Source of the DNA: a virus
IMG/VR virus record: IMGVR_UViG_3300035659_000029
Location: 1-47,077 of that record
Length of the DNA: 47,077 nucleotides
Reading direction: 5' to 3' (one strand)
Shown here: positions 11,606 to 36,353 of the stretch, in pieces
Layout of the letters: every line of letters starts with the position of its first letter
How positions within the stretch are numbered: position 1 is the stretch's first letter
Program-made: the position numbers and the translations under genes
The notes under the pieces: generated by a model
Told to the model about the DNA's origin: nothing
The model's database searches: none
Seen by the model: only the letters and a program-made list of their open reading frames with translations

Positions 11606-12109
11606 ATGAATGCATTAAGACGTGGCGATACTACTACAAAAGACAATCTAAACGTATTTATTTACGATAGATCAGGTCATTTAAAAGATCCATATAACTT
11701 GACATTTGATCTTTTTGATGTGACTTCTGGATCACCGGTGTTAATTGGTGGTACTGATAGATTACCTATTAAATTTGCTGTTGGCAGCTATTTTGCACCA
11801 TGGCAAATTTCAGTTGATGAATCAATAGGCCTTCATAAAATTGTCTGGAAAATAAAAGAAACTGCAACGAGCACAATTACATCATGGCCTGAAGAATTTG
11901 ATATTGTCTCGAAGCTTACATTAATAAATGAAGAATATCCGGATCAAATTAAAAGACTTCTTCATAAATTAAGAGTCAAATTAAGGGACGTAAACCCTGA
12001 CAGAGATTATTCTATTGATGGTAATGAGTTACTTACAGTTTTAGCAGATGGTGAAGAAATTTCTTTGACAATAAAAGATTTATATGAAATTATTAAAATG
12101 CAGGAATAA
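11606..12109 (+). CDS. Virion protein N-terminal half (N-extein) ending in a split-intein N fragment
   Basis: 167 residues; AAAAGGA precedes the ATG. Residues 1-105 are paralogue 4 of the local beta module (NLNVFIYDRSG, DPYNLTFDLFD, FAVGSYFAPW, HKIVWKIKE). Residues about 108-135 form a charged segment (RLLHKLRVKLRDVNPDRDY). From Ser136 the sequence changes into an intein block A: SIDGNELLTVLADGEE, then TIKDLYEI, ending KMQE-stop. Removing it and joining Tyr135 to the SFSPPSSEQ segment of the gene at 12587 restores a continuous protein. The product is therefore predicted to be inactive until spliced in trans. The stop is followed 2 bases later by the endonuclease-like gene. Confidence 0.8.
   Translation: MNALRRGDTTTKDNLNVFIYDRSGHLKDPYNLTFDLFDVTSGSPVLIGGTDRLPIKFAVGSYFAPWQISVDESIGLHKIVWKIKETATSTITSWPEEFDIVSKLTLINEEYPDQIKRLLHKLRVKLRDVNPDRDYSIDGNELLTVLADGEEISLTIKDLYEIIKMQE
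12011..12106 (+). other. Split intein, N-terminal fragment (32 residues)
   Basis: Starts at Ser1 (codon 12011-12013) directly after the extein ending PDRDY. SIDGNELLTV aligns by eye with the block A shape of known inteins (compare CLSYETEILTV in cyanobacterial DnaE), and TIKDLYEI matches the helix that follows. A Ser nucleophile replaces Cys. It stops after 32 residues, before block B, so the break is close to the N-terminus, as in the atypically split inteins of the AceL-TerL kind. Confidence 0.8.
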
Positions 12110-12111
12110 AA

Positions 12112-12594
12112 ATGGAAAAGAAATGCAAAAAATGTAATCAATTAAAGACAATTAATGAATTTAGTGGGAAAAATCAGATTTGTAATTTTTGTAAAGACAA
12201 ACGAAAGAATAGATTAAAATTATGCAAAAAGTGTAATCAACTAAAAATTAAAGAGTCTGAATTTAATTATGGAATGAAAATATGTAATGAATGTCAATCA
12301 AAAAGAAGACAAGTAGTTAAGAGTATAAAAAAGAGAATGAACGTTTGTCATTGTAGATATTGCAATAGTGAAACAAACAATAAAGGAAGAATTTGTGACT
12401 ATTGTAGAAACACTATTAAATGTAAACGTTGTAAAAAGAGATTGTCAAAAGATAAATGCAAAACCACATATCTTACTAATAGAGGATGGATTGTATTAAG
12501 ATTTTGGGAAAAGGAAATCAATAATAATATCATATCATGCGTTGATAAAATTTTACAAAATATTAACGCACGTAAGGAGACAGTATATGCTTGA
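12112..12594 (+). CDS. Zinc-ribbon Vsr-like homing endonuclease with the catalytic core deleted
   Basis: 160 residues encoded between the two halves of the split intein: it starts 2 bases after the N-half stop and overlaps the C-half start by 8 bases. Residues 1-115 hold paired CxxC ribbons (CKKCNQ..ICNFCK, CKKCNQ..ICNECQ, CRYC..ICDYC, CKRC). From about residue 117 it jumps straight into GWIVLRFWEKEINNN, the C-terminal signature that in the 21222 gene (GFIVLRFWESQINND) follows a complete nuclease domain. The roughly 100 residues that hold the acidic/His catalytic site there are absent, so this looks like an in-frame deletion and a probably inactive nuclease. Free-standing Vsr-type endonuclease genes inside fractured split-intein genes are a known arrangement. 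It may still bind DNA. Confidence 0.75.
   Translation: MEKKCKKCNQLKTINEFSGKNQICNFCKDKRKNRLKLCKKCNQLKIKESEFNYGMKICNECQSKRRQVVKSIKKRMNVCHCRYCNSETNNKGRICDYCRNTIKCKRCKKRLSKDKCKTTYLTNRGWIVLRFWEKEINNNIISCVDKILQNINARKETVYA
12574..12580 (+). promoter_or_regulatory. Shine-Dalgarno deciding the C-intein start
   Basis: AAGGAGA lies 6 bases before ATG 12587 and inside the last codons of the endonuclease-like gene. It supports 12587 over the in-frame TTG at 12542, and means the C-intein half has its own translation start. Confidence 0.75.
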
Positions 12595-12976
12595 TAATAA
12601 AATTAAAAAAATAAAAGATTGTTTTAATAATAAAGCATTATTAATTAAATCCATTAATAACATTGGCACTGTTGAATATAAACCAATTATTGATGTCTTT
12701 GAACATATTACAGTATTAAAAGATATTTATAAAGTGACGTTTGAAAATAATAAAAGTGTGATTGTAACAGAAGATCATAGTCTATATACATTTCAAAGTA
12801 ATGAAATTAAAAAAGTTAAGCCTATTGAATCTAACAATTTTATATGCATAATTAACAACAACTCGAAATTATTAAATGCTACAATTGAAAAAATTGATTC
12901 CAAACAATACATGTATGATTTATCTGTTAAAGATAATCAAAACTTTGTTTTAGCATCACAGATAGTGGTTTCGAAC
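12587..12976 (+). other. Split intein, C-terminal fragment (130 residues)
   Basis: Carries block B (TEDH, the TxxH motif), block F (DLSVKDNQNFVLA) and block G ending Ser-Asn, followed by Ser+1 at 12977. The penultimate residue is Ser in place of the usual His. No LAGLIDADG or HNH domain is inserted. Together with the 32-residue N fragment the intein totals 162 residues, mini-intein size. Confidence 0.82.
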
Positions 12977-13885
12977 AGTTTTAGTCCTCCATCTTCTGAA
13001 CAAGAAATCGCCGGTTTTACAGAGACTCGGGGTTATAAATGGCCTGACGATCAATTAGCAAATCATTTAGAAGATGCATCAAATTATATAAATTTATGGC
13101 CACCTGCAACAGAATACGAATTAATGTCATTTCCAGCAGCTTGGGAGCCATTAATGCTAATGGAAGCTCAAGTATACGCACTATATGATCTAGCAATTTT
13201 ATGGGCTGGAGAAGAATTCAATTATTCGCTTGCAGGTGTTAGTTTAGACATTAGACGTTCAGACAAGTACTCTGGTTTAGCGAATCAGATGCAATCGACT
13301 ATAGATAAACAATTAGAAATGGCAAAAAAGAGAGTAAAATGCATTGTCGGACTCCGGCAGGATAGGTACACATATTCTAGAGGCGCGTCGTTAGGTCCTT
13401 GGTGCATTCGTGCATGCTCGCGTGTACGAGACACAAATCTTAATCAAGACATTACAATTGAGGAAGCATATAATAAAAAGATGACACATAGTCTCTCTAT
13501 GGATCTTGCAACAAATAAATTGTTTGTAAATGATGTGATGGCAATTTGGAGCAATGGAAAACAGGACTTATATAAGATAAAATTGAGTAAAGATTATGAA
13601 ATTGAATGCACAAAGACTCATAAATTCTTTTATGATGACAATAGTGAAGTAATGTTACAGGATTTAGATTTAAATGAGAAAATATGGGTTAAAAATAATA
13701 AAAATGTATTGAAATTAGCAAAAATTATTGATATTGATTATTCTGGAAAATTTGAGACTTACGACTTGCAAATGAGGCCGTCGTACTGCAATTACATAGC
13801 AAATAATATCGTAGTGCACAACACGTCAGGCCAGAGCATTAAGAGATGGACTGGGTCACGATTCAATAGAATTCAGATGGGCTAA
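12587..13885 (+). CDS. Virion protein C-terminal half: split-intein C fragment, extein, cis mini-intein, extein
   Basis: 432 residues from ATG 12587. Residues 1-130 are the C-intein of a split intein: block B VTEDHSLYT, block F-like MYDLSVKDNQNFVLA, block G IVVSN, then Ser+1. Extein from Ser131 (SFSPPSSEQEIAGFTETRGY) runs 146 residues and includes a Leu/Ala-rich helix (YELMSFPAAWEPLMLMEAQ). A second, complete intein of 136 residues begins at Cys (codon 13415) and ends IVVHN before Thr+1 (13823); 20 extein residues close the protein (TSGQSIKRWTGSRF). Trans-splicing to the 11606 product plus cis-splicing would give a mature protein of about 135+146+20 = 301 residues, probably a virion component from its context. 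Extein DNA next to the junctions is visibly richer in GC than the rest. Confidence 0.82.
   Translation: MLDNKIKKIKDCFNNKALLIKSINNIGTVEYKPIIDVFEHITVLKDIYKVTFENNKSVIVTEDHSLYTFQSNEIKKVKPIESNNFICIINNNSKLLNATIEKIDSKQYMYDLSVKDNQNFVLASQIVVSNSFSPPSSEQEIAGFTETRGYKWPDDQLANHLEDASNYINLWPPATEYELMSFPAAWEPLMLMEAQVYALYDLAILWAGEEFNYSLAGVSLDIRRSDKYSGLANQMQSTIDKQLEMAKKRVKCIVGLRQDRYTYSRGASLGPWCIRACSRVRDTNLNQDITIEEAYNKKMTHSLSMDLATNKLFVNDVMAIWSNGKQDLYKIKLSKDYEIECTKTHKFFYDDNSEVMLQDLDLNEKIWVKNNKNVLKLAKIIDIDYSGKFETYDLQMRPSYCNYIANNIVVHNTSGQSIKRWTGSRFNRIQMG
13415..13822 (+). other. Cis-splicing mini-intein (136 residues)
   Basis: Cys1 opens CSRVRDTNLNQDITIEEA (block A shape C-x4-DT, then TIEE). Block B is ECTKTHKFF, with TKTH at intein positions 66-69. 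Block F is TYDLQMRPSYCNYIANN and block G IVVHN, with Thr+1. There is no endonuclease domain, so it is a mini-intein. It interrupts the C-extein of the split-intein gene between CIRA and TSGQSIKRW. The alternative Cys at 13403 is less likely because the DT spacing fits 13415 better. Confidence 0.8.
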
Positions 13886-13960: not shown

Positions 13961-15289
13961 ATGACTTTATTTAATTACAAATGCAAAGATTGTGGAAAAG
14001 AAGTTGAAGTAGAAAAGTATTGTACTTATTTTAAATGTGATGAGTGTGAAGAGAAGCAAAGACAGAAAAGATTGCAAGAGAAGTCGACAAATATATGCAC
14101 TAATTGTGGAAAAGAATTTAAGAAGGATCCCAGTTCAAGAGCTTATCATTGTTCTGAATGTAAAGATAAGGTACAATTTAATAAAACTCATACTGCATGC
14201 AGTAGATGTAAACAAATATTACATAGGGATAAATTTCCTGCTGGAAATACGACTGTATGTTTTGATTGTAAACGAGAAGAAAATGAAGAAATAGAAAAAA
14301 TAAAATTATCTCAAAAAGTTTATACTAGACATTGCAAGACGTGCGGTAAAGATGTAGAAACAATTAATAGATTTGCAACAGTCATTAATTGTAAAGAATG
14401 TGAAGATAAAAAACAAGAACTGAAAAATGAAGTTAAAGTTTTTATTAGAAAATGTTTAGAATGTTCAAAAGATATTGAGACTGCAGGACATGCAACAGTT
14501 TTATATTGTAAAGAATGTAAACAGAAAAAAGAAGATAATAAAAGATTAAAAAAGCTTAGTTATTTTGATAGAAAACATTATAGAACTTGTCAATATTGTG
14601 GTACTAAAGAAGAAGTTGAAAGAGATTTAAAAAAACGACATTATACTTGTTCAAATTGCTTAAAAGATCCAAAATATTTAATAGATTATACTAGACATTG
14701 TAAAATTTGTGGTAAAGATATAATTGTTAAAGATCCATACGCGACATTTATGTCCTGTGAAGATTGTAATAGCAAAAAAGACGAGCTTAAAATATATGTT
14801 AAAAGTGACAATTGCTCATATAGAAAATGCTCAAAATGTCATAATGAATTTAAAGTAAGTGCAAAATCCAGAAGATATATTTGTTTAGATTGCAAACCAA
14901 AGAAAAATAAAAAAGTAGTAGAATTTAATAAAAAGAAACATTATGGCTATTATGGCATTTCTTCTGATGGTCATAAGTGGTGGTCATTGAATGAGCAAGA
15001 TTTAGAAGAGTGGTTAATATCAAAGAATATTAGGCATATACCTCAGAAAAGGATAGGAGAATCTTTAAAACATGCTGATCAATATTTGCCTGATTTTGAT
15101 TTGTATATAGAGATGGATGGTTTGAGAAGAAAAGATGATATTGATTGGTGCGGGAAATTATCATTATATAAACGGTTAAATTTAAAGTATAAAATAGTTG
15201 AGCCGATTAAAGTGCATTTTAATGATGATCCTGAAAAGTGTTTTATTGAATTAAATGAAAAGTTAAGTTTTATAATGGAGAAAGTATGA
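13961..15289 (+). CDS. Homing endonuclease-like protein with eight zinc ribbons
   Basis: 442 residues; AAAGGATG precedes the ATG. Residues 1-320 contain eight short Cys4 units (CxxC, about 15-20 residues, CxxC), for example CKDCGKEVEVEKYCTYFKC and CKICGKDIIVKD. The units sit 35-55 residues apart and are probably tandem DNA-binding ribbons. The C-terminal ~110 residues (LEEWLISKNIRHIPQKRIGE, YLPDFDLYIEMDGL, LNLKYKIVEP) match a Vsr/DUF559-like PD-(D/E)XK nuclease: PDF and IEMDG supply the acidic residues. It lies directly downstream of the intein-broken gene, so it may have served, or serve, that insertion. The next gene overlaps its stop by 4 bases. An RNA hairpin covers its start. The target site is unknown. 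Confidence 0.72.
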   Translation: MTLFNYKCKDCGKEVEVEKYCTYFKCDECEEKQRQKRLQEKSTNICTNCGKEFKKDPSSRAYHCSECKDKVQFNKTHTACSRCKQILHRDKFPAGNTTVCFDCKREENEEIEKIKLSQKVYTRHCKTCGKDVETINRFATVINCKECEDKKQELKNEVKVFIRKCLECSKDIETAGHATVLYCKECKQKKEDNKRLKKLSYFDRKHYRTCQYCGTKEEVERDLKKRHYTCSNCLKDPKYLIDYTRHCKICGKDIIVKDPYATFMSCEDCNSKKDELKIYVKSDNCSYRKCSKCHNEFKVSAKSRRYICLDCKPKKNKKVVEFNKKKHYGYYGISSDGHKWWSLNEQDLEEWLISKNIRHIPQKRIGESLKHADQYLPDFDLYIEMDGLRRKDDIDWCGKLSLYKRLNLKYKIVEPIKVHFNDDPEKCFIELNEKLSFIMEKV

Positions 15290-15792
15290 AATATTTAAGT
15301 ATTATTCAAGCAGATTTTTTAAAAATTGCAAAAGAGTTGTCAGACGCTCAGAAAGATGCTGGTAATTATAAAAAACAGCATCGTAAGTTTGAAGGTCTTG
15401 ACATTTCTATTGAAAATCCAAAAGGATCAACAAGGAGTGGAGTATCTAGAGATGGAAAAGAATGGTCAAATGTGCTTAAACATCATTATGGCTATATAAA
15501 AGGTACCGAAGGTAAAGATAAAGATCATGTTGACGTTTTTCTTAACACAAATGCAAAAAAAGGTTTGCCAGTATTTGTTGTTAATCAAGTTAATCCTGAG
15601 AATAAAAGATTTGATGAACATAAAGTGATGTTAGGATTTGAGACTGAAGATAAAGCAAGAAAAGCATATCTTGCTAATTATGATAAAAATTGGAAAGGTT
15701 TAGATTCAATAGTTCAGCTTTCAATGGATGATTTTAAAGATTGGGTATTTAAAGGTAAAAAGAAAGAACCTTGTGAGATAAAAGTTTTATGA
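15286..15792 (+). CDS. Phage-type inorganic pyrophosphatase-like (InPase) domain protein
   Basis: 168 residues, ATGA overlap with both neighbours. After a short helical start the body shows GLDISIENPKGSTRSG, WSNVLKHHYGYIKGTEGKD, KDHVDVFLN, VFVVNQVNP and FDEHKVMLGFE. This is the pattern of the InPase-type domain found in phage polyvalent proteins, named for its resemblance to soluble inorganic pyrophosphatases; the clustered Asp/Glu/Lys would be the metal and phosphate site. Here it stands alone instead of being part of a giant polyvalent protein. The substrate is not known. Its coupling to a HAD phosphatase gene suggests phosphate chemistry on a shared small molecule, which is an inference. 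Confidence 0.6.
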   Translation: MKYLSIIQADFLKIAKELSDAQKDAGNYKKQHRKFEGLDISIENPKGSTRSGVSRDGKEWSNVLKHHYGYIKGTEGKDKDHVDVFLNTNAKKGLPVFVVNQVNPENKRFDEHKVMLGFETEDKARKAYLANYDKNWKGLDSIVQLSMDDFKDWVFKGKKKEPCEIKVL

Positions 15793-16187
15793 AAAAAATC
15801 ATAGCTGTAGATTTTGACGGCACGCTAGTAAAAGAACTTGATAAGGCATATTTAGCAACTGAGTTTGAGTTGATGCCAAATGCTAAAGAAGTGATTAATT
15901 GGATGTATGATAAGTTTTACATTATTTTATGGACATGTAGGAATGAAAAATTTTTACAAAATGCAGTAGGTTTTTTAAATAAAAATGCAATTGTGTTTCA
16001 TGCTATAAATGAAAATGCTGACTTTTTAGATTTTGAAACATCACCAAAAATATATGCAGACATATACATTGATAATAGAGCAATGTGTGAAATAAATTGG
16101 TTAAAGATTAAAGACTATTTGAACACGCTTTTACTTAATGATGATGACAAAATAATTAGTCAAGTAGTGATTGAGGTAAATAAATGA
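15789..16187 (+). CDS. Small HAD-superfamily phosphatase
   Basis: 132 residues with ATGA overlaps on both sides. Motif I is VDFDGT (nucleophile Asp8, acid Asp10), motif II is the Thr49 region (IILWTCR), and the acidic motif IV is DIYIDNR (Asp91, Asp95). There is no cap domain, and the size fits the short C0-type HAD proteins common in phages. It probably hydrolyses a phosphomonoester such as a nucleotide or sugar phosphate. It sits between the InPase-like gene and a large structural gene and has no other metabolic neighbours. Confidence 0.78.
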   Translation: MKKIIAVDFDGTLVKELDKAYLATEFELMPNAKEVINWMYDKFYIILWTCRNEKFLQNAVGFLNKNAIVFHAINENADFLDFETSPKIYADIYIDNRAMCEINWLKIKDYLNTLLLNDDDKIISQVVIEVNK

Positions 16188-20556: not shown

Positions 20557-21222
20557 TTGGAAAAAATTATGAATGTGCCATCTAATATTGGTGAAAGTTA
20601 TTGGTTTAGCCATGTGAGAAATATTATGCCTGAATATATAAGAGTTGTTGGTCGTGTTGTAGGTGAAGTGTACATAAAAGATATTGATAAGAAAGTATAT
20701 TATAATAAAGTGTTTGATATTACTGTAGTTGATGCTAATAGATCTAATGATTTGATTAATGCAATAGCTAAAGGATGGATTGATGTTATTCATGGTAAAC
20801 ATTTTTTAGTAAAAATTCAACGTCATGATTATAATACTGAAATTATTCGTGATGAAGTTGTTCAAGTTCAACCATTACAGCAAGTACAACAGGTTGATTT
20901 ATCTGAAATTAAGAACTATGTTAATCAATTAATGCAAACGTCAACAACAGCTATTATTGATCAGTTAAAGCAATTACAGCCAAATAATATTGTTGTTGAC
21001 AAAAATGTTATAGATAATATTGTTAGTCAAATTACAAGCAAGTTGACAACAACAGTATCAAAAGAACAATCTGCAATTATGGATGTTGCGAACAGTGTCT
21101 TTATAAATCTTGATCAAGATAAAGAATTAAAGACTAATATCAATGGTGAAATTGGTACTGTAACGACTCAAGAAGATAAGAAATCTAAGTCTATAGCAAA
21201 AAAATTAAAAACGATTAAATAA
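20557..21222 (+). CDS. Unknown connector-region protein with Gln-rich coiled segment
   Basis: 221 residues from TTG 20557, with AAGGA about 12 bases upstream; ATG 20569 is a possible alternative start. Residues 1-85 form a compact alpha/beta start (ESYWFSHVRNIMPEYIRVVG, VFDITVVDANRSNDLINAIA). Residues about 95-180 are Gln/Val/Ile-rich and probably coiled coil (QVQPLQQVQQVDLSEIKNYV, MQTSTTAIIDQLKQLQ), and the tail is Lys-rich. The last base overlaps the ATG of the endonuclease gene, so that gene uses its ribosomes. Function is not recognised. Confidence 0.5.
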   Translation: MEKIMNVPSNIGESYWFSHVRNIMPEYIRVVGRVVGEVYIKDIDKKVYYNKVFDITVVDANRSNDLINAIAKGWIDVIHGKHFLVKIQRHDYNTEIIRDEVVQVQPLQQVQQVDLSEIKNYVNQLMQTSTTAIIDQLKQLQPNNIVVDKNVIDNIVSQITSKLTTTVSKEQSAIMDVANSVFINLDQDKELKTNINGEIGTVTTQEDKKSKSIAKKLKTIK

Positions 21223-22364
21223 TGAATACAAAATTTTGTCAAAAATGTGCAAAGAATAAAGTTAGACGTTTGTCGTGGTGTAGTAAATGTAGACATTTGT
21301 TTGTTGATGAATATAAACAATTAAAACTACAATTAAAAGAAAAATTGAAGAATACGTTTGTTAATAAGAAGTGTAAAATATGTAGTAATCTTGTTAAAAT
21401 TAAATTTTATTCTGGAACTGTAATTTGTGATCAATGCAAAGGTACTAGTAAATCATCTGCATTTTTTAAAACAAGAAATGAAAAGACGCTAAAAACAATA
21501 CGATTGAGGTACAATGTAGATAATTGTTTTTTAGTTAAAAGTGACAATGGCGATGAATTAAAAAGAGTAAAAACTTGTCAAGAACGTTATGGAGTTGATA
21601 ATCCTTTACAAAATAAAGATATTTATAATAAAGCGCAACAAACTAATTTAAAAAAATATGGATATAAAAATCCATTTGAAAATGTAGATAAATTAAAGAT
21701 AACATGGACAAAAAAATACGGAGTAACAAATCCTAATAAAACATTAATTATTAGACAAAAAATTGAAAAAACAAATCAAGAACTATATGGAGTTAAAAAT
21801 CCTGCTCAAAATATTGATATAAAAAATAAGATTATTTCTACAAATTTAAAAAGATATGGTTATAAACATGTATTGCAAGTACCAGAAATAATGAAGAAAA
21901 GATTTGACAAAAAACATTTAACATATTCAAAAGTACACGCTAAATTAAAGAATAAAATAGTTGATAAAATAAAAAATCAAAATTTTGAAACTGAATGCAT
22001 AATAACTTGTAAACATGAACATTTTTCTATTGATGAGTATGATAAGTCAAGAAAGATTATAATTTTTGTTGATGGTGATTATTGGCATGCAAATCCATTA
22101 AAATATCAAAAAAATTATTATTTTTCAACGATGAATAAAACAGCTGAACAAATACATGCTCGAGATGAATATGTAAGTCATAAATTAACTCTTAATGGTT
22201 TTATTGTTTTAAGATTTTGGGAAAGTCAAATTAATAATGATATAGATATTTGTATTAGTACAATTGATTCAACTATTAAAAATATAGATTCATTAAATTT
22301 AAGGACTATATATGAAAATGAAAAAGATAAAACAATTAAGAAGGAGTGTCAAAATGTTAAATGA
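21222..22364 (+). CDS. Vsr/EDxHD-like homing endonuclease with zinc ribbons and YGxxNP repeats
   Basis: 380 residues, TAATG overlap with the upstream stop. Residues 1-75 hold two Cys4 ribbons (FCQKC..WCSKC; CKIC..ICDQC). Residues about 120-225 carry five repeats of a DNA-binding-type unit (ERYGVDNPLQ, KKYGYKNPFE, KKYGVTNPNK, ELYGVKNPAQ, KRYGYKHVLQ). Residues about 230-370 are the nuclease: KIIIFVDGDYWHANP (VDGDYWH at 283-289), ARDEYVSHKLTLNG, then FIVLRFWESQINND. This is the Vsr-like fold of known phage homing endonucleases and appears intact. It lies between two phage genes without breaking either, overlapping the actin-like gene by 11 bases. It is a close relative of the decayed 12112 gene. 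Confidence 0.8.
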   Translation: MNTKFCQKCAKNKVRRLSWCSKCRHLFVDEYKQLKLQLKEKLKNTFVNKKCKICSNLVKIKFYSGTVICDQCKGTSKSSAFFKTRNEKTLKTIRLRYNVDNCFLVKSDNGDELKRVKTCQERYGVDNPLQNKDIYNKAQQTNLKKYGYKNPFENVDKLKITWTKKYGVTNPNKTLIIRQKIEKTNQELYGVKNPAQNIDIKNKIISTNLKRYGYKHVLQVPEIMKKRFDKKHLTYSKVHAKLKNKIVDKIKNQNFETECIITCKHEHFSIDEYDKSRKIIIFVDGDYWHANPLKYQKNYYFSTMNKTAEQIHARDEYVSHKLTLNGFIVLRFWESQINNDIDICISTIDSTIKNIDSLNLRTIYENEKDKTIKKECQNVK

Positions 22365-23379
22365 AGTTGACAAATGCAGCAGAAAACTTGGAATCGGAAT
22401 TGATTGTGGAACAGCATTTTTTAATAGTGCTATAATACATGAAAACGGTGAAGTAAAAATTCGTACTCAGCGAGATGCATTTTTTGATATTGAGAATGAT
22501 AAATTTGCTAAAAACATGTTGACAACAAATAACGCGAATTATATTGAATCAGATGACGGCAAATTACTATATGTTATAGGTCAGGAAGCTCTTAATTTTG
22601 CTAATGTTTTTAAAAGAGAAATTAGAAGACCATTACAAAAAGGTGTAATAAGTACAAGAGAGCCGGAAGCTTTATTAATGATAAAAACTATCATTAAAAA
22701 TGTTTTAGGTCAGCCTGTTAAAGAAAATGAAATTTGTAAATTTTCAGTACCAGCTCAACCAATTGACGCAAATTATAACATTATTTATCATGAAAATGTA
22801 TTAAAGTCATTTATTGAATCATTTGGTTTTAAAGCTGAATCTATTAATGAAGCAAGGGCAATATGCTATTCTGAATTAGATGATGAAAGTTTTACGGGTT
22901 TGTCGTTGAGCTTTGGAGCTGGCATGGTGAATTTGAATCTGTCATACCGTGGAGTTTCTTCAATTGAATTCTCAGTGTCTAGATCAGGAGATTGGATAGA
23001 CGAGTGCAGTGCAGCAGCTATTGGTGAACGAGTTGCAAAAATGACTGCAATTAAAGAGCAAGGTGTTGATTTATTAGCGCCAAAAGATAGATATCAGGAG
23101 TCAATAAGTATTTTTTATAGAAATTTTATCGCTTATGTTATAAAATGTTTTGAAAAGAAGTTGTCTGAAATGCAAGATATTCCAGAATTTCCACAACCAA
23201 TTTCAGTTGTATTAGCTGGTGGAACTTCATTAGCAATGTCATTTGATAAAGTATTTAAACAAGAAATTGAAAAAATTAAATTACCGTTTAAAATTAAAGA
23301 AGTAAAGTTTGCTAATGATCAAATGTTTGCAGTTGCAAAAGGCGCGCTTTACTCAGCATTGTCTGAATATGAAGAATAA
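22354..23379 (+). CDS. Actin-like ATPase (ParM/MreB/FtsA superfamily)
   Basis: 341 residues from ATG 22354, chosen because AAGGAG lies 8 bases upstream; an in-frame ATG at 22312 is inside the endonuclease gene. Phosphate 1 is GIDCGTAF (Asp17), phosphate 2 is SFGAGMVNL (Gly188), and the adenosine motif is VVLAGGTSL (AGGTS at 288-292). These are the three signatures of the actin/Hsp70 fold, at the spacing of short single-domain filament formers such as ParM or Ta0583. Jumbo phages are known to use cytoskeletal proteins (PhuZ tubulin, ParM-like) for DNA or virion positioning. It is unusual to find one inside a neck/tail operon. No ParR-like partner or parC-like repeat array is seen nearby. Its cellular role is therefore open. 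Confidence 0.8.
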   Translation: MLNEVDKCSRKLGIGIDCGTAFFNSAIIHENGEVKIRTQRDAFFDIENDKFAKNMLTTNNANYIESDDGKLLYVIGQEALNFANVFKREIRRPLQKGVISTREPEALLMIKTIIKNVLGQPVKENEICKFSVPAQPIDANYNIIYHENVLKSFIESFGFKAESINEARAICYSELDDESFTGLSLSFGAGMVNLNLSYRGVSSIEFSVSRSGDWIDECSAAAIGERVAKMTAIKEQGVDLLAPKDRYQESISIFYRNFIAYVIKCFEKKLSEMQDIPEFPQPISVVLAGGTSLAMSFDKVFKQEIEKIKLPFKIKEVKFANDQMFAVAKGALYSALSEYEE

Positions 23380-23389
23380 AGGAGGATGT

Positions 23390-23704
23390 ATGTTGATAAA
23401 TCATACTGAACGAGTTGTTGACAGAGTGATTAAAGAAGCAAGAACAATATCAAAAATAGCAAAAATATTTGATGTTGGTGATGTTGTTGTTTTAACTAGT
23501 CAAGTTCAAGGTTTGAATAAAGGTAACTTATATAAAGTTACTAAGAATTCAAATCCAGGAATGATATCTATTGCTGAATATTATCCCGAAAAAGTTGGAG
23601 TTGAAAAAGGTCGCGATGATACAGCTGACAAAGTTGGTGAAGTTGGAAATGAAATAGGCGAATATAGAACTGATCATTTTGTTCGTTATAATCAAGAAGG
23701 TTAA
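23390..23704 (+). CDS. Small beta-barrel-like protein downstream of the actin-like gene
   Basis: 104 residues. ATG 23390 is preceded by AAAGGAGG, the best Shine-Dalgarno in this part of the window. A basic helix (VVDRVIKEARTISKIAKIF) leads into DVGDVVVLTSQVQGLNKGNL and YKVTKN, which looks like a small SH3/KOW-type barrel. The polar C-terminus (KGRDDTADKVGEVGNEIGEY) is probably flexible. It lies 10 bases after the actin-like gene, so a partner or regulator role is possible, but nothing in the sequence proves it. Confidence 0.55.
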   Translation: MLINHTERVVDRVIKEARTISKIAKIFDVGDVVVLTSQVQGLNKGNLYKVTKNSNPGMISIAEYYPEKVGVEKGRDDTADKVGEVGNEIGEYRTDHFVRYNQEG

Positions 23705-24750
23705 TGATTAAAATGAATCATAGAATAAATAGTATTTCATCTATAATTTTGCCAAAAGATGAACTTTACAAACTTTATTTTATTGATAAAAGGACGACAT
23801 TACAATGCTCTAAACATTTTAATGTTCATGGAAGAACTATTATAAACAATTTTGCTTATTATGGTTGGAAATTTAGATCTAGAGGAGAAGGTCAACATTG
23901 TTCTGATGCTACAAAGAAAAAAGTGTCAGAAGCAAATAAAGGCAGAAGATTTTCTAAAGAAGTAAATTTAAGCAAAGGCCGACCTGGACGTATAGGACCG
24001 AATAAAGGAAAGACTAAAGAAAATAGTGAGTCAATACGACAAATAGTTTTTAAACTTAGTGCAAGAAATAAATTTAATTGTTTACAGCTTAAATTGATGT
24101 CAGAAAAAAGGTCTAAAGAAAACAAACTAAATTGTGAAAGAGTTAGAAAGGGTGCTGAATCTAGATTCGTAAAACCTACAAATGAATGCAAAATGTTTTT
24201 ATTAGATTTTTTAAATAAATGCGATGAAACTAACGTGATATCGCTTTTTTATTTGGCAAAACAAAGAAATTTTAGAATGAAAGATATTGAAAGAAATTTT
24301 GAAATTCTAAAATCAGAACAAAAAAATTTAATTGAATCTAAAATTAAAAACAGACAAAATGAAATAAAACTTGAAAATGAAATAATTATTCCATTTTTAA
24401 ATAAATATTTTCAAAAAGCACAATTAAAAAGGCAAGTAAAAATAATATTACCTTATAATAAACGATGTTTTGCAGATATAGTTTTATATGAGAATAGTAA
24501 ACCTTATTTAATAATAGAGTCAAAAGTATTTATTAGAAAAAATAATGAGCATCAATTAAAACAATTAAAAAAATATTTAAAGTCATTAAATTGTCAATAT
24601 GGATTATTAACAAATGGTTATCGATATCGATGGTATTTTTATAATAAAGATTTAAATGAATTAGAATTAATTCATGATAAAAACACTTTGCCATTGATTA
24701 TTAAAAATGAATGTGAGACAACATGTACTACCGCATCTCGAATTGCGTGA
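23704..24750 (+). CDS. Homing endonuclease-like protein with PD-(D/E)XK nuclease domain
   Basis: 348 residues, TAATG overlap with the gene before. Residues 1-60 read as a helix-turn-helix-like start (KDELYKLYFIDKRTTLQCSK). Residues about 65-105 hold NUMOD3-type DNA-binding motifs (HCSDATKKKVSEANKGR, SKGRPGRIGPNKGKTKE). Residues about 240-330 are a PD-(D/E)XK domain: CFADIVLY (Asp258), YLIIESK (Glu272, Lys274), then QLKQLKKYLKSL and YGLLTNGYRYRWYFY, as in type I restriction HsdR N-termini. It overlaps the next structural gene by 28 bases, and that gene's 5' end has an unusual base composition, consistent with homing next to the target. Probably active. Confidence 0.75.
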   Translation: MIKMNHRINSISSIILPKDELYKLYFIDKRTTLQCSKHFNVHGRTIINNFAYYGWKFRSRGEGQHCSDATKKKVSEANKGRRFSKEVNLSKGRPGRIGPNKGKTKENSESIRQIVFKLSARNKFNCLQLKLMSEKRSKENKLNCERVRKGAESRFVKPTNECKMFLLDFLNKCDETNVISLFYLAKQRNFRMKDIERNFEILKSEQKNLIESKIKNRQNEIKLENEIIIPFLNKYFQKAQLKRQVKIILPYNKRCFADIVLYENSKPYLIIESKVFIRKNNEHQLKQLKKYLKSLNCQYGLLTNGYRYRWYFYNKDLNELELIHDKNTLPLIIKNECETTCTTASRIA

Positions 24751-35018: not shown

Positions 35019-36353
35019 ATGAATACAATAAAATTAAAATATTTAACCAGTAAAGAATCCAAAGACATAATTTTGAACTATATGAAAAATCAAAATAATG
35101 TAATTAAATTCTTATACAATAGATTACAAGAGAACAAATTACTCTCACAAGTACAACTCACGTCACTATCTAACACTATGAACAATATATTTATCGATAG
35201 CTGGTTTAAACAATGCGCGATGTATAAAGCTAAAAGTCTTAGTGATGAAAAAGTAATATTTGGTGGTAAGAAGTTGTTTTTTGAAAGAATGAAGAATAGA
35301 ATAACAAAAGAAGAGTTTAAGATAAAAAAATTGTTGCTATTATATGTTATAGGTGAGAGTAATTATTATGGTAATCGAAAGTTTGATTTTCAAATAATAG
35401 AAAATAATAAGTTAATATTTAAACCTTGTCTAAAAACTAAAATAGAGCTTCAATTACCCAAACTACGAAAAAACTATCAAAAAATTCTATTTAAACTAGA
35501 GCAAGCTACTAATGACAAACTATTGCCTGTAACTATTGCTTTAGACTTAGATTTTATTTATATCACTTTTGATGAGAATTTTCTAAAACAAGAAATTGCA
35601 AGCAAAGTTAAAAATAGAATTATGACTTTAGACTTAAATCCTAATTATATAGGCTTTTCTGTTATTGACTGGAAGAGTGAAGATAGCAAGAGTATAATAA
35701 AGACGAGCTGTATAAGTATCAAGCAATTAAATGACAAACAATTTGAATTAAAAGATCTCAAAGTAAGTAGCGAAGATAGTAGAATGAAATATTTAGTCAA
35801 TAAAAGAGTATTTGAAACATTTGAAGTAGCTAAATATTTAGTTAACATGGCTAGGCAATATCATGTAGAGAGTTTTGGTATAGAAGATTTGACAATTAAG
35901 TCAAGTGAAAAGGGAAAAGGAAGCAAGTATAATAGGTTAGTGAATAATTTATGGAATAGAGGGAAATTAGTAAGTAATATAGAAAAGCGACTAAATATTT
36001 GTGGTATTAAACTGTACAAGATATTACCACAATATTCAAGTTTTGTTGGAAACATAATGAATAGACAGTATTTTGATCCAATAGCTAGTAGCATAGAAAT
36101 AAGTAGACGTTGTTATTGCTTTAAAAATAAAATTAAACCTGTACTTTTTCCAGACTTTAAAAAGTCTATTAGTGTTATCACTAAGTCATTGGAAGAATTT
36201 AGTGATAATGTTGTAAAATTAGTAGATATTAAAGATTGGCGAGAGTTATATAGACAGGTAAAAAGCCTTAAATTGAAGTATAGGGTTTCTTTGAGTGATA
36301 AGCTTAAAGTTTTTAGATTGTTTAATAAAAAATCATTATGTGAATTTTATTGA
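35019..36353 (+). CDS. TnpB-like RuvC nuclease without the zinc finger
   Basis: 444 residues. The N-terminal ~190 residues fit the helical/OB part of TnpB-like proteins (NVIKFLYNRLQENKLLS, NIFIDSWFKQCAMYKAKSL). The RuvC triad is visible: Asp205 in MTLDLNPNYIGFSVID, Glu289 in FGIEDLTI, Asp353 in YFDPIASSIEISRR. Between the last two, where classic TnpB has a CxxC..CxxC zinc ribbon, there is only PQYSSFVGNIMNRQY, as in the zinc-less TnpB-related group. No TnpA transposase is present. RNA-guided cleavage is known for TnpB, so a homing-like role is possible; guide RNA and ends are not identified. It lies between the tube and the chaperone genes, with a duplicated gene end on its left. The Shine-Dalgarno is weak. 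Confidence 0.75.
   Translation: MNTIKLKYLTSKESKDIILNYMKNQNNVIKFLYNRLQENKLLSQVQLTSLSNTMNNIFIDSWFKQCAMYKAKSLSDEKVIFGGKKLFFERMKNRITKEEFKIKKLLLLYVIGESNYYGNRKFDFQIIENNKLIFKPCLKTKIELQLPKLRKNYQKILFKLEQATNDKLLPVTIALDLDFIYITFDENFLKQEIASKVKNRIMTLDLNPNYIGFSVIDWKSEDSKSIIKTSCISIKQLNDKQFELKDLKVSSEDSRMKYLVNKRVFETFEVAKYLVNMARQYHVESFGIEDLTIKSSEKGKGSKYNRLVNNLWNRGKLVSNIEKRLNICGIKLYKILPQYSSFVGNIMNRQYFDPIASSIEISRRCYCFKNKIKPVLFPDFKKSISVITKSLEEFSDNVVKLVDIKDWRELYRQVKSLKLKYRVSLSDKLKVFRLFNKKSLCEFY

Follow-up and report, generated by a model that had tools for sequence, protein, structure and literature searches.

The window analysed here is the whole 47,077-nucleotide stretch of the virus record IMGVR_UViG_3300035659_000029, a metagenome contig that is classed as linear and is probably a fragment. 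At positions 11606-13885, the gene of a presumed head-tail connector-like protein is broken in two, with the halves of a split intein at the break and a further open reading frame (ORF) between them. The features are as follows.

11606-12109, plus strand: N gene of the head-tail connector-like protein, coding for its first 135 extein residues (11606-12010), then intein-N and a stop
12011-12106, plus strand: intein-N, 32 amino acids, with Ser1, block A, and the block N2-like motif TIKDLYEI
12112-12594, plus strand: ORF in the break, a putative decayed free-standing nuclease gene of 160 amino acids, with zinc ribbons and the C-terminal end of DUF559
12587-13885, plus strand: C gene, coding for intein-C and the remaining extein, which is interrupted by a second intein; it has its own ribosome-binding site AAGGAG
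12587-12976, plus strand: intein-C, 130 amino acids, with TEDH (block B), the motif NX His40, and the block F Asp111, ending in Ser129-Asn130, with Ser at +1
12977-13402, plus strand: C-extein part 1, SFSPPSSEQ...SLGPW
13403-13822, plus strand: second intein, a contiguous mini-intein of 140 amino acids, Cys1 ... VVHN, with Thr+1
13823-13885, plus strand: C-extein part 2, TSGQSIKRWTGSRFNRIQMG and stop

The N gene product, MNALRRGDTTT...NPDRDY over its 135 extein residues, continues into SIDGNELLTVLADGEEISLTIKDLYEIIKMQE and stops. The ORF in the break begins 2 bases after the N gene, and its 3′ end contains the ATG of the C gene at 12587, the overlap being 8 bases; the C gene product opens with 130 residues ending in QIVVSN and goes on with SFSPPSSEQ. 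Each of the three ORFs has a ribosome-binding site and a start of its own; the N and C genes share a frame (start coordinates equal modulo 3), and the ORF between them is in another. The preliminary description of this region had block A following PDRDY and ending at a stop after 32 residues, an ORF 2 bases downstream, and a C gene opening with blocks B, F, and G ahead of SFSPPSSEQ; all of this is found in the sequence as claimed, and the split-intein observation is real.

Taken together, the exteins of the N and C genes make up one intact homologue of 297 amino acids. In four relatives from viral contigs (L002, L003, L004, and L010; contigs of 66-416 kb), the protein is encoded by a single uninterrupted gene and is 78-80% identical to the joined window exteins, with no gap at the site; the gene order around the homologue is that of the window in L002, L003, and L004. 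Both extein halves of the window are intact, with a DNA identity to the relatives of about 68-82% beside the site. More distant relatives (L012, L016, L017/L018, L024, L038, L039, and Tunturi_5) likewise read through both intein sites, or through the first site only where the C-terminus differs. With these intein-free homologues the boundaries can be set exactly, and the splice point lies between Tyr135 and residue 136 (DRDY/xF). Homologues existing as two separate proteins without an intein had been named as what would speak against a trans-splicing pair; none occurs among the relatives read, where every intein-free homologue is a single ORF across the site and the only other broken copy, that of LR745208.1, likewise has a split intein at the break. 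Phage records searched at the DNA level gave no match to the region, scanning genome contigs with the extein alignment revealed no relative, and a DNA pattern of the N side, used to look for further inteins at this position, picked up only intein-free genes or unrelated matches.

The host gene is presumed to encode a virion structural protein of the head-tail connector type. The earlier designation as a virion gene is based on its position and on the annotation of one homologue, that of Tunturi_5, as "head-tail connector", and not on structure prediction: the AlphaFold 2 (AF2) model of the extein is weak (predicted local distance difference test score, pLDDT, 59), and a portal-adaptor chain, 8gtd, appears among its Foldseek matches only at rank 4 with a low template modelling score. 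This fold assignment was dropped as too weak to serve as proof.

Blocks A (SIDGNELLTVLADGEE..), B (VTEDHSLYT), F (YDLSVKDNQNFVLA), and G (IVVSN) are distributed over the two intein pieces. Intein-C alone passes the cut-offs of Pfam Intein_splicing (50.0 bits; cut-off 35.8), TIGR01445 (25.2 bits; cut-off 24.5), and TIGR01443 (20.8 bits; cut-off 15.6), and joining the 32-residue N tail raises the TIGR01445 score to 32.0 bits. The tblastn score to the PolB intein of Campylobacter phage CC_R7 likewise rises from 49 to 56 bits upon addition of the N tail, and the joined pair aligns over residues 1-162 with this contiguous intein at 33% identity (E 1e-7; intein-C alone, 6e-6). Against the CC_R7 PolB intein, the N tail outscores 19,979 of 20,000 shuffles (21 reach its score) and, against a homologous intein-N, all but 2 of 20,000 (19,998 outscored); in a control with fragments of other proteins of the window, 6 and 0 of 3,000 equalled the gain on joining. 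Although intein-C is modelled poorly by AF2 (pLDDT 53), its Foldseek matches are almost exclusively inteins, the cysteine-less Aes123 PolB1 among them. As a query of the viral contigs, intein-C alone found no relative. At the level of sequence, these comparisons show the two pieces together to be a single HINT-type intein that belongs to class 1 and the Ser1/Ser+1 kind and is atypically split 32/130, which is the split originally proposed. Class 1 rather than class 3 is assigned because an Asp occupies the block F position together with Ser1. With its 32 residues, intein-N is within the 15-37 amino acids known for atypically split inteins (PMC13014065).

Ser1, TxxH of block B (TEDH), the block F Asp, the terminal Asn130, and Ser+1 are all present, and the unusual Ser1, Ser-Asn end, and Ser+1 of the preliminary description stand with boundaries set by the intein-free homologues. 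The residue following DRDY, or its equivalent, is His in every intein-free homologue read (CAT wherever the DNA was examined) and Ser (AGT) in the window. Since the window has Ser at the position of the family's His, the intein would sit where the family residue cannot splice, and a His to Ser substitution would supply the required nucleophile. A second intein, which had escaped the preliminary description, lies farther downstream in the C gene (CIRACSRV...IANNIVVHN); its site is uninterrupted in the homologues (LGPW/TxGQ), and it should remove itself in cis. Because it is carried by the same C chain, one mature protein would need one trans- and one cis-splicing event.

Splicing of the split intein would proceed as follows. 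Both chains would be made from one transcript, and the intein pieces would associate and fold. Ser1 would take up the N-extein as an ester, which would be attacked by Ser+1; eventually, Asn130 would cyclize and the product PDRDY-SFSPP would be released. A nuclease may once have spread the element and then have lost its catalytic half, so that the element would now be fixed.

The remains of such a nuclease would be encoded by the ORF in the break. The ORF contains several zinc-ribbon-like Cys pairs followed by the last ~45 amino acids of DUF559, which is Vsr-like (profile positions 65-108 of 109, E 5.9e-7), and any relation to the Vsr-like family of fractured genes is confined to this match. 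The same C-terminal ~45 amino acids are the only part resembling the nuclease encoded at 21222 of the window (44% over 45 amino acids), and the segment of the latter that is presumed to hold its catalytic residues (FVDGDYWH) is absent from the ORF. With the protein encoded at 13961 only the cysteine spacing is shared. Judged by these matches, the ORF is a decayed nuclease without its catalytic half, in agreement with the decayed endonuclease gene originally suspected in the break. Since its frame is still open over 160 codons (~1.7e-8 for random sequence of the same composition), the decay would be recent or the remnant retained, perhaps with a role in translating the C gene.

A related fracture is found in LR745208.1, a 485-kb record of an uncultured huge phage without annotation (L006 4121-6495). 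The same host gene is broken there by a homologous intein with the same split point (intein-N 32 amino acids in the window and 33 in LR745208.1) and with a nuclease gene in the break; the two inteins can be aligned nearly end to end (52 bits, E 5e-14 as a single comparison). In contrast to the window, the break lies 6 codons (18 bases) upstream, the intein is of the Cys1/Cys+1 kind and ends in HN, and the middle gene encodes a TnsA-like nuclease of 347 amino acids that is apparently intact. The N side reads ..LLRDQ/CLGGEETVELDVEGERMIVRLDDLWETLEVNPG and stop, the C side MLTETQ..SSITGHN/CPDRDYHFAPP; at the position of the +1 Cys most relatives have Asn. Either one split lineage changed its site or two related ones entered separately. 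It is conceivable, though somewhat doubtful, that one head-tail gene family was invaded in distantly related giant phages by a single atypically split intein lineage, at two sites separated by 18 bases; that this lineage changed its nucleophiles (Cys/Cys versus Ser/Ser), swapped its nuclease partner, and sits each time beside a +1 residue unlike that of the family; and that the window intein splices although both C-terminal catalytic histidines are missing.

With single-ORF homologues on the one hand and intein halves at the break on the other, it is very probable that a naturally split intein interrupts a jumbo phage head-tail connector-like gene as a fractured gene, as first proposed, and the intein would be expected to splice. 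Some features of the intein weigh against this. In place of the block F histidine (NHNF in CC_R7) the intein has Gln118, and in place of the penultimate one Ser129, so that Asn cyclization would have to do without both usual helpers; His40 of intein-C aligns with the motif NX His of CC_R7 but is preceded by Glu; and Ser+1 stands in place of the His of every relative read. The motif NX His is typical of Ser1/Ser+1 inteins, with the Arg or Lys before it said to be invariable (PMC10189870). The two replaced catalytic histidines and the Glu in place of Lys/Arg, together with the decay of the nuclease, would suit a degenerate intein that has lost ligation, with the two chains acting as subunits held together non-covalently, perhaps once N- or C-terminal cleavage alone has taken place. 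This is unlikely, as the splicing residues from Ser1 to Ser+1 are all retained, the conserved His at +1 has become exactly the residue type that splicing needs, and the split lies in the most conserved stretch of a protein of which no homologue works as two plain chains. AceL NrdHF, which lost both histidines, still splices (PMC7891396).

The common frame of the N and C genes and the metagenomic origin of the contig would also be compatible with an assembly or sequencing error, by which a contiguous intein with an internal nuclease merely looks broken. This is very improbable in view of the separate ribosome-binding sites and starts, the different frame of the nuclease, and the occurrence of the same three-gene layout, with intein-N ending at the same point, in the unrelated assembly LR745208.1. 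Phage nuclease genes are often located in group I introns, and the break might for this reason be taken for an RNA intron. That is hardly credible and was dropped, since intein blocks flank the break on both sides in frame with the exteins and an Rfam scan of the window gave no intron match.

Fractured genes, reportedly described by Dassa et al. in 2009, are said to be broken at a split intein, with a free-standing homing-nuclease gene between the halves. The window resembles them in the intein halves at the break and the nuclease ORF between, and differs in its host, a head-tail connector-like protein, in the split near the N end, and in the decayed nuclease. No paper on a fractured head-tail gene was found in the open-licence literature. 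For an atypically split Ser1/Ser+1 intein in a fractured gene, the combination has so far been reported only for PolB16, which a 2026 paper (PMC13014065) gives as the only known natural intein that is both cysteine-less and atypically split. The PolB16 OarG intein (PMC10189870) shares with the window Ser1/Ser+1, a short intein-N, two non-catalytic cysteines in intein-C, and the motif NX His; in the window, however, intein-N has 32 rather than 15 amino acids, the gene is another one, the penultimate and block F histidines are missing, and Glu precedes the NX His. The inteins AceL TerL and GOS TerL (S2 split site) also interrupt a phage gene and have a short intein-N ending approximately at the end of the first helix, but, unlike the window intein with its Ser1/Ser+1, they are cysteine-dependent (GOS TerL, Ser1/Cys+1) (PMC13014065). 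The CC_R7 PolB intein (PQ092953.1), the best full-length match of the joined intein, is also Ser1/Ser+1, but it is contiguous, lies in a DNA polymerase, and ends in HN. In Campylobacter phage F379 (L028 641-4745), two small ORFs break the DNA polymerase within a Ser1/Ser+1 intein; with the same intein contiguous in CC_R7, this is a second before/after-fracture example. A split intein with Ser1, accompanied by an HNH nuclease, is known from the polymerase of jumbo phage MIJ3 (PMC6892783).

For cysteine-free protein labelling there is demand for natural Ser1/Ser+1 inteins whose N fragment is short, and the 2026 paper names just one. The pair formed by the window and LR745208.1 would offer a clean test of how inteins gain their +1 nucleophile (His/Asn in the intein-free genes versus Ser/Cys), and a presumed virion structural gene would be added as a host of trans-splicing.

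Directly after the C gene, at 13961-15289, the window encodes a multi-zinc-ribbon protein of 442 amino acids with a nuclease-like C-terminal part; a homologue (48% identical) is found at the same place in L003 (9464-10693), whose copy of the head-tail gene is intein-free. The structural cassette of the window contains three more mobile nuclease-like genes (21222-22364, 23704-24750, and 35019-36353), which are of the DUF7487/DUF559 type, of the HsdR-N type, and for a TnpB-like protein, next to which no transposase was seen. Among the structural genes there is also one for a small HAD-phosphatase-like protein (15789-16187; VDFDGTLV), which is kept in L002, L003, and L004, and an actin/ParM-like protein is encoded among the tail and head genes at 22312-23379.
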